Assembly (NCBI GenBank): GCA_016198585.1
Contig: JACQII010000011.1
Span: 1-64,000 of the forward strand
DNA: 64,000 nucleotides
Origin: Candidatus Aenigmatarchaeota archaeon
GTDB lineage: Archaea; Aenigmatarchaeota; Aenigmatarchaeia; QMZP01
Direction of reading: 5' to 3'
In this document: piece by piece, positions 741 to 6,492 of the stretch
Position numbering within the stretch: position 1 is the stretch's first letter
How the letters are laid out: every line of letters begins with the position of its first letter
Notes under the pieces: generated by a model
Seen by the model: the letters and a program-made list of their open reading frames with translations, nothing else
What the model was told of the DNA's origin: nothing
Databases searched by the model: none
Position numbers and translations under genes: made by a program

Positions 741-2384
741 CTAGTAGTCCATGTCGCCCATGCCGCCCATTCCAGGCATACCGCCTGCGGGCGGGCCGGC
801 CGACTTGCTCCCGCCTGCGGAGATGATGTCATCGATGCGCAGGATCATCTCGGCTGCCTCTCCGGCAGACTTGATGGCCTGGAGCTTGATCTTGAGCGGT
901 TCGATGACACCGACCTTGATCGAGTCCTGGACGTTGCCCGTGAACGCGTCCAAGCCTGCCCGGGTGTTCCCGCGGTCGTGCTCGGCGCGCAGGTTGGCGA
1001 GCTTGTCGATCGGGTCGAAGCCCGCGTTCTCCGCGAGGCTGCGGGGGATGATTTCAATGGCGTCCGCGAAAGCCAGGATCGCCAGTTGCTCCCTGCCCTT
1101 GAAGCTGTCCGCATACTTGCGCAGTTCCCGGGAGACGCCGATCTCAACCGCGCCGCCACCCGGCACGATCTTCCCGAGCTCGAGGGCCGAGGAGATGCCC
1201 TTGATCGCGTCTTCCATGGCCCGCTCAAGCTCGTCCACGACGTGCTCGGTTCCACCCCGCAGCAGGATGGTGACGGCTTTGGGCGACTTGCACTTCTCGA
1301 TAAAGATCATCTGCTCCCCGGAGACTTTCCGCTCCTCGACCAGGCCCGCGAATCCCAGGTCGTCGGCCGAGAGGTCGCGGAGGGAAGACACGATGCGGCC
1401 GCCGCTGGCTTTCGTGAGCTTCTCCATGTCCGACTTCTTCACGCGCCGCGCGGCGAGGACGCCCTGCTTCGCGAGGTAGTGCTGGACCGTGTCGTCGATG
1501 CCCTTCTGGCAGAGGACGACCGTGGCTCCGGCTGATTTGACGCGGGCGACCATGTCCTTGAGCATCTTCTCCTCCTCGTTGAGGAACGCCTGCATCTTCT
1601 CGGGCGAGTCGATCGAGATCTTCGCGTCCGACTCAAGCTCCTTGATCTCCATCGCAGCCTCGAGCAGCGCGATCTTCGCATCGGTGACCTTCTTCGGCAT
1701 GGACGAGTGGGCGACCTCCTTGTCGATCACGATCCCGTCGATCAGGGTGGTCTCGTTCATGGAGCCTGCGGCTTTCTTCTCCAGCTTGATGTCGTCCACG
1801 CTGACCTGGCCCTTCTGGTCGGCCACGCGCTTGATGGCCGCTACGGCGATCTTCGCCAGCTCCGGCGAGGCCTTTTCCGCGGCCTTGCCCGTCATGGCGG
1901 TGCTCGCAATCTGTTCGAGCAGGGCTTCGTCCTTAATCGAAATAGCAATCCCGGCCTTCTGGAGAACCTCGAGGGCCTTGGCCTTTGCCAGGAGGAAACC
2001 TTTCGTGATCACGGTGGGGTGGATCTCCTGGTCGAGCAGGTCTTCAGCCCGCTTCAGGAGCTCGCCGGCGAAGATGACCGCGCTGGTGGTCCCGTCGCCC
2101 ACGCTCTCGTCCTGGGTCTTGGCGACCTCGACCATCATCTTGGCGGCCGGGTGCTCAATCTTCATCTCCTTGAGAATCGTCACGCCATCGTTCGTGATGA
2201 CCACGTCGCCGATCGAGTCGACCAGCATCTTGTCCATCCCCTTCGGGCCGAGGGTTGACCGGACAGCGTCGGCCACCTGCCGCGCGGCGGCGATGTTGTT
2301 CCGCTGGGCGTCCTTCCCCCGTGTGCGGAGGGTGCCCTCCGGCAGGATGAAGATCGGCTGTCCCTGGAATGATCCGTTAGTCAT
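741..2384 (-). CDS. ths: Thermosome subunit (group II chaperonin)
   Basis: A 547-residue cytosolic chaperonin subunit that folds proteins in an ATP-driven double ring. The N-terminus FILPEGT..GKDAQ, the [14 protein letters not shown] block, NDGVTI and the nucleotide motif GDGTTS (residues 96-101) are typical. PGGGAVE is in the C-terminal equatorial half. The C-terminus carries the Gly/Met-rich tail ([13 protein letters not shown]) of this family, and length is normal. An upstream in-frame GTG at 2393 exists, but ATG 2384 is preferred because GTGAT, a Shine-Dalgarno match, precedes it by four bases and the TATA box at 2422-2429 predicts a leader of about 15 nt. Other subunits may lie elsewhere. 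Confidence 0.97.
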
Positions 2385-2421
2385 GGGTATCACGTAAAGC
2401 GATATTATATTATGGGTGGGG

Positions 2422-2495: not shown

Positions 2496-2644
2496 TGGGC
2501 TCGGAGGGAGTCTCGCCGCGCCCGGCCATGGACTGGACGCGCCATCGAACCCTCAACCGCCTGCGTTCACGCCACGGCCTGGATAAGCCGAGCCTTATAA
2601 GACAGGTGCTTAAGCCGTGCGCCTAGCCGCTGAGCTACGAGCCC
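2496..2644 (-). tRNA. tRNA-Leu(UAA) with two introns (anticodon loop and T-loop)
   Basis: The acceptor stem GGGCUCG (2644-2638) pairs perfectly with CGAGCCC (2503-2497), followed by discriminator A at 2496 and no encoded CCA. The anticodon stem CACGG (2619-2615) pairs with CCGUG (2577-2573). The loop reads CUUAAG with anticodon UAA at 2612-2610. A long variable arm (2572-2555), together with A73, fits archaeal tRNA-Leu. About 30 nt (2608-2579) interrupt the anticodon loop at 37/38; the 3' edge is uncertain and no textbook bulge-helix-bulge was found. The T-stem GAGGG/CCCUC is split by 34 nt (2543-2510). Removing them gives a perfect 7-nt T-loop, UUCGAUU. UUCG pairs with intron CGAG, flanked by 3-nt bulges AUG and ACU. 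Mature length is about 85 nt. Confidence 0.8.
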
Positions 2645-2662: not shown

Positions 2663-2670
2663 CGTATAAA
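2663..2670 (-). promoter_or_regulatory. TATA box of tRNA-Leu
   Basis: TTTATACG on the minus strand, centred about 22 bp before the first tRNA base. Transcription would start at or just before the mature 5' end. Confidence 0.55.
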
Positions 2671-2697
2671 GCCTTATCTAGACGCTTCCGGCGACCA

Positions 2698-4976: not shown

Positions 4977-5261
4977 TTACACCAGCTTCAGGTGCTCCGG
5001 CCGCACCAGCACGTCCTTCCGCTTGTTGCCGTCGCGGATCGCGACCATGTAGGCGGTTCCCCGCGAGGCGAGGACGATCCCTGCCAGCCCGACAAGCCGC
5101 AGCGGCGGCATGCCCCGGCGGGATGAGGGGTCGACGCTGAGTATGACTCGGTCTCCCGGCTTAAATCCTTGCAGGATCCGCTCCACGGTAAACTTGTGCC
5201 TGATGCCCCGCTTCAGCAGCCTGCGGCCGCCGCGCTTATTTCCGCTGCTTGCTCGGACCAT
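4977..5261 (-). CDS. rpl21e: 50S ribosomal protein eL21
   Basis: A 94-residue basic ribosomal protein of the large subunit, specific to archaea and eukaryotes. The N-terminus is Arg/Lys rich (NKRGGRRLLKRGIRHKF). FKPGDRVILSVDPSSRRGMPP and the C-terminal KDVLVRPEHLKLV are the family signature. The start lies 26 bases inside the end of pus10, in a different frame, so the two genes overlap and are translated from one mRNA. Confidence 0.96.
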   Translation of the reverse strand: MVRASSGNKRGGRRLLKRGIRHKFTVERILQGFKPGDRVILSVDPSSRRGMPPLRLVGLAGIVLASRGTAYMVAIRDGNKRKDVLVRPEHLKLV

Positions 5262-6492
5262 AGCCTTTCACATGGATCTTGATGACGTCCAGCTCCTTCA
5301 CCGTGACCGGCCCGAACAATTCGGCCACCGACGGCCGCGTCCTGCCCTGGTCGCCGGTCACCAGCTCCTTCACGTACAGGCCGGCCTGGCCCCGGACCTC
5401 GATGACCGCGCGGCGCGAGCCGACGGCTTTGCCGGCGATCTCTTTGACCGCCCGCTTCCGGAGCAGGTCCGCCCTCCGATGGAGGACTCTGGACGGCGTC
5501 TGCTGGTTTATTATGCCCCGCAGCGTTTTTAAAGCTGCCAGGTCCTTCTGCTGGACCGGCCGGGTGAATTCGACCAGGACGCGGTAGGACTTGTCCGGCC
5601 GCAGGGCCTTGAGCCGCCGGACCTCTTCCTTGTCGGTGAACCGGAAGCCGCGGACCTGGACTTTCTTGGACCGGTTGACCTGCTTCTCCAGGGAAACGAG
5701 GTCAAGCGACCTGGCACTCGGCCTCTCCAGTTCGAACACGAAGGGCCGCCAGTCGAGGCAGCGGGCGTCGATGTCCTCCCTGCCCATCCCGTGGAAGGCG
5801 TGCCCCTCTGCCAGCGAGGCCTTCATGAGCGGCTTCGCGACGATGTCCTCGACCGTCACGGCATAGGTCGACCACTTGGTTTGGGGAATGCCTCGGACGA
5901 GCTTCTGGTAGCTGCCGGCGATGAAGAGCGAGCGGACTGCGAGCCTGACCTGGCCGGCGGCGAGGTCGAGGGTGAACGTCACGTCAGCGACCGGATCGTA
6001 GTCTTTGCCGAGGAGAGCGCCGATCTTCTTGCCGAGCTCGCGGTTGATCTCGGATTTCAGGGGCTCGCAGGAGTCGATGCCAACCTCTTCCCAGAGGTCT
6101 TCCTCACGGGAGGCGAGATCGGCGTTGAGCACGGTTCCGACGACGAACGTGGAGAATTCGATGCCTGCCGCTTTCTCCTTGGCCTCGGCCGCGTACGCGT
6201 CGAGGCGGGTGAAGACCTCCCCACAGACCGTGCAGCGTTTCGGCTCCTTTCCCCGGAGCAGTCCACGGAGGAGACGGCCGCGCTCCAGGTTGGTCATGCC
6301 GGTCGAGACCTGGGCGAACTGCCGGCCCAGGCAGTGGTCGCAGACCTCCATCGCGGCGACGCGACGCGCGGCCTTCAGGACCGCGGGCGTACTGAAGGCC
6401 GCAGCAGGCGGTTGTTTTCCTATCGCCTTCTGGTTGGTTGTGCGGTTCTTCGGCGGCACAGGCCTTTTCTCACGGCGGGGGGAAGCGCGCAT
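5236..6492 (-). CDS. pus10: tRNA pseudouridine(54/55) synthase Pus10
   Basis: A 418-residue enzyme that makes pseudouridine at positions 54 and/or 55 of the tRNA T-loop in archaea. An N-terminal zinc module has Cys51-x2-Cys54 and Cys87-x2-Cys90. A THUMP-like middle region follows (residues about 100-220). The catalytic motif is GREDIDAR (residues 237-244, presumed catalytic Asp240). The C-terminal part has RSKKVQVRGFRFTDKEEV and GLYVKELVTGDQGRTRPS. The first 30 residues are a basic low-complexity extension. TTTAATAC centred 26 bp before ATG 6492 gives a leaderless operon start for pus10-rpl21e-rpoF-DUF655. Confidence 0.95.
   Translation of the reverse strand: MRASPRREKRPVPPKNRTTNQKAIGKQPPAAAFSTPAVLKAARRVAAMEVCDHCLGRQFAQVSTGMTNLERGRLLRGLLRGKEPKRCTVCGEVFTRLDAYAAEAKEKAAGIEFSTFVVGTVLNADLASREEDLWEEVGIDSCEPLKSEINRELGKKIGALLGKDYDPVADVTFTLDLAAGQVRLAVRSLFIAGSYQKLVRGIPQTKWSTYAVTVEDIVAKPLMKASLAEGHAFHGMGREDIDARCLDWRPFVFELERPSARSLDLVSLEKQVNRSKKVQVRGFRFTDKEEVRRLKALRPDKSYRVLVEFTRPVQQKDLAALKTLRGIINQQTPSRVLHRRADLLRKRAVKEIAGKAVGSRRAVIEVRGQAGLYVKELVTGDQGRTRPSVAELFGPVTVKELDVIKIHVKGYGPSKQRK

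Follow-up and report, generated by a model that had tools for sequence, protein, structure and literature searches.

Exon and intron structure of the tRNA gene at 2496..2644

The window, a stretch of 64,000 nucleotides from a Candidatus Aenigmatarchaeota archaeon (contig JACQII010000011.1), harbours an interrupted tRNA gene on its minus strand, running from 2644 to 2496, which is 149 nt unspliced and 73 nt mature as judged by its spliced form and its orthologues. The first-pass annotation had placed an interrupted archaeal tRNA gene over exactly this span with two introns, one in the anticodon loop and one in the T loop; both are there, but the count was one short since a third intron of 12 nt is found in the D arm. 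On the minus strand from 2644 to 2496, with the introns in lower case, the gene reads GGGCTCGTAGCTCAGCGGCTAG-gcgcacggctta-AGCACCTGTCTTATAA-ggctcggcttatccaggccgtggcgtgaac-GCAGGCGGTTGAGGGTTCGAT-ggcgcgtccagtccatggccgggcgcggcgagac-TCCCTCCGAGCCCA.

Exon 1, GGGCTCGTAGCTCAGCGGCTAG (2623..2644), consists of the acceptor 5' strand and the D arm up to position 22, with 21 of 22 nucleotides identical in a genome of the same genus. It is followed at about 22/23 by the D-arm intron, GCGCACGGCTTA (2611..2622, 12 nt), whose boundaries were set by comparison with orthologues carrying GGTTAGAGC unbroken and hold to within ± 1–2 nt. Exon 2, AGCACCTGTCTTATAA (2595..2610, 16/16 identical within the genus), contains the D stem 3' strand, the anticodon stem 5' strand and the anticodon loop, with the anticodon UAU (positions 34–36) at 2597..2599, as called by ARAGORN on the spliced form and common to 85 genomes of the phylum. 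The 30-nt anticodon-loop intron (2565..2594) lies at 38/39, or in other terms at 37/38 shifted by one base. Exon 3, GCAGGCGGTTGAGGGTTCGAT (2544..2564), consists of the anticodon stem 3' strand, a 5-nt variable loop, the T stem 5' strand and the T loop to position 59, and 20 out of 22 aligned positions are identical to the same-genus genome. The T-loop intron (2510..2543, 34 nt) interrupts the gene at 59/60 in a strict bulge-helix-bulge (BHB) motif and is followed by exon 4, TCCCTCCGAGCCCA (2496..2509, 14/14 identical within the genus), with the T stem and acceptor 3' strands and A73.

About 20–27 nt upstream of the tRNA the sequence suggests a putative TATA-box-like element, CTTTATAC (2664..2671, minus strand). 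The next gene downstream encodes a thermosome subunit (741..2393, minus strand; Pfam Cpn60_TCP1, E = 5e-182), and a thermosome (chaperonin) gene also neighbours the orthologue in another Aenigmatarchaeota genome (L001). The gene for Pus10, which in archaea makes the T-loop pseudouridine 54/55, is located at 5236–6492 (minus strand), 2.6 kb away from this tRNA with an intron-broken T loop, which is probably a coincidence.

Once the three introns (12, 30 and 34 nt) are removed, what remains is a class I tRNA of standard form, 73 nt long and with A73. The acceptor stem of 7 bp (GGGCTCG/CGAGCCC) and the T stem (GAGGG/CCCTC) pair perfectly, as was first proposed, the D stem is GCTC/GAGC and the anticodon stem CCTGT/GCAGG contains one U31-G39 wobble, while the loops are CUUAUAA (anticodon), CGGTT (variable, 5 nt) and, once spliced, UUCGAUU (T loop), the last just as anticipated. 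ARAGORN reads the three-intron spliced form as a complete cloverleaf, tRNA-Ile(tat), the predicted centroid fold of the 73-nt product is a cloverleaf, and the class I cloverleaf, UAU anticodon and A73 were all found both here and in the orthologues. For the unspliced gene neither ARAGORN nor Rfam at its gathering score gave any call, and the whole-genome RF00005 search, from which the tRNA inventory of the genome was made, misses this gene, leaving the inventory blind to it. A weak Rfam match to a glutamine-II riboswitch in the unspliced gene (12.9 bits) was dismissed as chance.

As for the other tRNAs, most of those in this genome (L088–L102) are over normal length, several contain more than one intron and some introns sit at non-canonical places, e.g. 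C1:19707-19846. A class II tRNA at G000:C16:3000-3084 (L096, L285) has the loop TTCTAAA, the anticodon CUA (amber suppressor type) and an encoded CCA; it sits on a 7.3-kb contig that matched no phage DNA and showed no clear TAG readthrough, and this contig may therefore come from a contaminant or belong to a mobile element.

Isoleucine or leucine

The comparisons point, with a probability of about 0.93, to a functional tRNA-Ile(UAU) gene, an AUA decoder with a three-intron precursor that would stand in for tRNA-Ile2(CAU) and TiaS. The tRNA would be charged with isoleucine and read AUA, and its U34 may be modified.

The first-pass annotation had instead proposed a tRNA-Leu(UAA) with two introns, where the removal of 30 nt leaves the loop CUUAAGG and a second intron is taken from the T loop. 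A stem CACGG/CCGTG then pairs perfectly, and in ARAGORN the 85-nt product comes out as Leu(taa); since ARAGORN accepts the Ile and the Leu splicings alike, it is the relatives and not the program that decide the identity. When compared with the same-genus genome (G001, L085/L120), which has all three introns (L120), 71 of 74 exon positions are identical, against 51 of 100 aligned columns in the introns; the CACGG/CCGTG segments fall within the variable introns. The leucine reading is not kept in the sister species, where the anticodon would become CAA and the stem would be without partner. The L001 orthologue, with three introns of its own, reads CCCGT-CUUAUA-intron-A-GCGGG and its anticodon intron forms a perfect BHB (CUUA/UAGG, bulges UAU and CCA), and two further orthologues (L133, L136) lack the D and T introns so that the plain tRNA body is visible. 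All inspected orthologues contain CUUAUA in class I bodies and none is a leucine tRNA, while the leucine tRNAs of the genome itself (L092, L101) bear no resemblance to this gene in their acceptor, D and variable arms. The putative leucine product is without a D stem, and its predicted fold is a long hairpin, not a cloverleaf; neither a class II cloverleaf nor a D stem conserved in relatives was seen for it.

The true anticodon intron lies 3' of CUUAUAA, and the proposed anticodon stem CACGG/CCGTG is therefore composed of the D-arm intron paired with the anticodon-loop intron; the 30-nt intron first drawn, this stem and the leucine identity had to be given up. Moving the intron so as to obtain the anticodon UAA or UGA was also considered, and the 5-nt class I variable loop, which excludes both Leu and Ser, rules this out. 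A leucine tRNA is thus highly improbable, and the comparison of sequences establishes both the isoleucine identity and the exon/intron map.

Just as improbable is a pseudogene or decaying tRNA copy, a reading that could explain why the unspliced gene escapes ARAGORN and Rfam, but the exons are nearly invariant while the introns change, no other UAU tRNA was found in the genome (two more pattern matches there are not tRNAs) and the missing TiaS implies that the tRNA-Ile(UAU) gene should be needed. That one precursor gives Ile(UAU) and, by alternative splicing, Leu(UAA) as well is the least probable of all, since although both products are tRNA-like on paper the Leu form is not conserved in the sister species, and we know of no precedent.

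Splicing motifs and splicing endonuclease

At the T-loop junction of the tRNA-Ile(UAU) gene a 4-bp helix (UUCG/CGAG) is flanked by 3-nt bulges, AUG and ACU, a motif and position that the first-pass annotation had exactly right. The same 4-bp helix (UUCR) was found at this site in 11 of the 15 T-loop introns parsed from orthologues, compared with 0.4 expected from shuffles. At the D-arm and anticodon junctions no strict BHB was found, only relaxed forms. The anticodon junction pairs UUAU (33–36) with GUGA in the intron, with bulges of 3 nt and 2 nt, the 5' bulge being AAG; a strict BHB at 37/38 was rejected because CUUA against CGUG pairs at two of four positions and the shifted UUAU/GUGA at all four. 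Among 44 anticodon-loop introns parsed in relatives, 39 pair with the anticodon loop through a helix of 4 bp (2.5 expected), either canonical with 32–35 (CUUA, 16/44) or shifted by one to 33–36 (UUAU, 23/44), the latter mostly with GURR-like intron ends. The intron of the gene studied here is of the shifted class, so that it follows A38 and the loop stays CUUAUAA; in either register the intron pairs with U34 and A35. In the D arm a helix GGCU/GGCU closes a small loop without an intron helix, and in the sister species it is GGCG/CGCU, with one pair changed on both sides (two sequences, compared by hand). With relaxed motifs at the D-arm and anticodon junctions, the cut sites there are less certain, to within ± 1–2 nt.

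A profile search of the genome with PF01974 revealed two proteins, of 389 aa and 179 aa. The 389-aa EndA aligns end to end with the epsilon2 enzyme of ARMAN-2 (4fz2; query 2–389, chain 5–387, E = 8.8e-98), has the three-unit alpha-N/alpha/beta-C organisation and retains Tyr, His and Lys in the motifs FRIY, HSKH and VRKT. The need for an endonuclease of broad specificity, foreseen for introns outside 37/38, is thus matched by a full-length epsilon2-type EndA like that of ARMAN-2; epsilon2 enzymes are described as having a broad specificity and cleaving non-canonical introns (PMC12397907, PMC4033280). The 179-aa protein resembles a stand-alone alpha subunit with Ala at the position of the catalytic Lys (RAR for RKK, in our own alignment) and is possibly a non-catalytic partner. 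Its gene (G000:C5:71317-71589, L081) lies about 7 kb past the end of the window and adjoins two tRNA genes.

The precursor would be transcribed from the minus strand with introns in the D arm, anticodon loop and T loop, and the epsilon2-type EndA is the likely cutter of the strict T-loop BHB and of the two relaxed motifs. Ligation of the exons would then yield the mature class I tRNA of 73 nt, with A73 and the anticodon loop CUUAUAA; we infer both the splicing itself and its order.

AUA decoding in two DPANN phyla and comparison with known systems

In most archaea AUA is read by tRNA-Ile2(CAU) carrying agmatidine, made by TiaS. When 156 genomes of the phylum Aenigmatarchaeota were searched with the UAU-arm pattern GAGCRCCBGTCTTATA, allowing one mismatch, 88 matched (about ten with the reversed pattern), and inspection of all 88 identified 85 as tRNA-Ile(UAU), two of these running off a contig end. 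The other three were a CAU (G042), a UCU (G031) and no tRNA at all (G125). The remaining genomes may have different anticodon stems, more introns or missing contigs. TiaS, judged by two domains, is absent from the phylum: PF08489 gave no match over the cut-off in the 156 genomes, 39 of them near-complete, with one sub-threshold match containing internal stops, and PF22641 gave none in the same 156; as a control, PF22641 was present in 8/10 other archaea and 4/4 archaeal controls. In the Woesearchaeota phylum TiaS was found in none of 194 genomes and the UAU-arm pattern in 113; out of 30 loci read there, 29 are tRNA-Ile(UAU), every one with an anticodon-loop intron, and many of these introns end with CUAAGAAA or a close variant that pairs with CUUA.

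AUA is rare but used: in 50 ORFs of the window, picked by a simple rule, it accounts for 27 of 1011 Ile codons. At 76% completeness, the genome could have a further AUA decoder among its missing parts. As a group the Aenigmatarchaeota seem to read AUA by tRNA-Ile(UAU) and not by an enzyme-modified tRNA. A literature search, with subscription journals outside its scope, found no report that brings together DPANN, tRNA-Ile and agmatidine, and prior reports are possible. According to the published view, archaea have almost no UAU tRNAs and read AUA via TiaS-made agmatidine; two DPANN phyla without detected TiaS, many of whose members have an intron-bearing tRNA-Ile(UAU), change the picture of how AUA and AUG are kept apart, and such intron-bearing genes can escape standard tRNA finders.

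The anticodon intron is kept in all inspected Aenigmatarchaeota genes except L213 (G002), L245 (G151) and L246 (G152), and these three rule out a universal anticodon intron. In two intron-poor genomes, 7 of the 67 tRNA matches tallied are longer than 95 nt, tRNA-Ile(UAU) with its anticodon intron being among them. In yeast, the modification of U34 and U36 in tRNA-Ile(UAU) by Pus1 requires a helix between anticodon and intron (PMC11408192), and as in this pre-tRNA with its intron-dependent psi34 and psi36, the intron pairs with the anticodon here. By analogy with yeast, the archaeal intron may serve U34/U36 modification. A wider proposal, which we consider tentative and rather doubtful, is that tRNA-Ile(UAU) replaces TiaS and agmatidine in much of DPANN, with the intron kept as a template for modification of U34 (and U36), e.g. 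pseudouridylation, that would block misreading of AUG. Against such a role for the intron stand the three archaeal relatives without it, by which they also differ from yeast, the fact that splicing demands the pairing regardless, and the differing intron dependence in Cyanidioschyzon merolae (PMC9602550). If true, the archaeal system would either parallel the eukaryotic tRNA-Ile(UAU) with its dependence on an intron, or share an origin with it. A part of the intron in U34 modification, as in yeast, becomes testable, and L213, L245 and L246 are natural tests of the need for it.

Archaeal tRNA-Ile(UAU) is on record from Nanoarchaeum equitans and Korarchaeum cryptofilum (PMC8450103), and a count found it in 2 of 167 genomes (PMC6000648). 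The tRNA-Ile3(UAU) of these two archaea likewise takes the place of tRNA-Ile2(CAU), and the Korarchaeum gene also bears an intron, compared with three introns in the window genome. Introns outside 37/38 had been ascribed mainly to Thermoproteales and a few other archaea, a range that needs widening, the host here belonging to the Aenigmatarchaeota (DPANN). Three-intron tRNAs are known in Thermoproteales, and Thermoproteales and ARMAN-1/2 similarly have introns outside 37/38, as many as three and of BHB or relaxed-BHB type, together with a broad-specificity endonuclease (PMC4033280). The phyla differ, and here an epsilon2 endonuclease as in ARMAN is accompanied by a second, alpha-like protein; multi-intron tRNAs are now tied to an epsilon2-type endonuclease outside ARMAN. 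The tRNA-Ile(UAU) of Cyanidioschyzon merolae has introns in the same three arms (PMC9602550), but this is a red alga with a eukaryotic splicing enzyme, and the likeness, which lies in the intron positions, is most likely convergent. With the UAU tRNA published for two archaea and three-intron tRNAs known, the gene is of known kinds; what stands out is the breadth of UAU decoding together with the absence of TiaS, spread over Aenigmatarchaeota and the Woesearchaeota phylum and unexpectedly broad.
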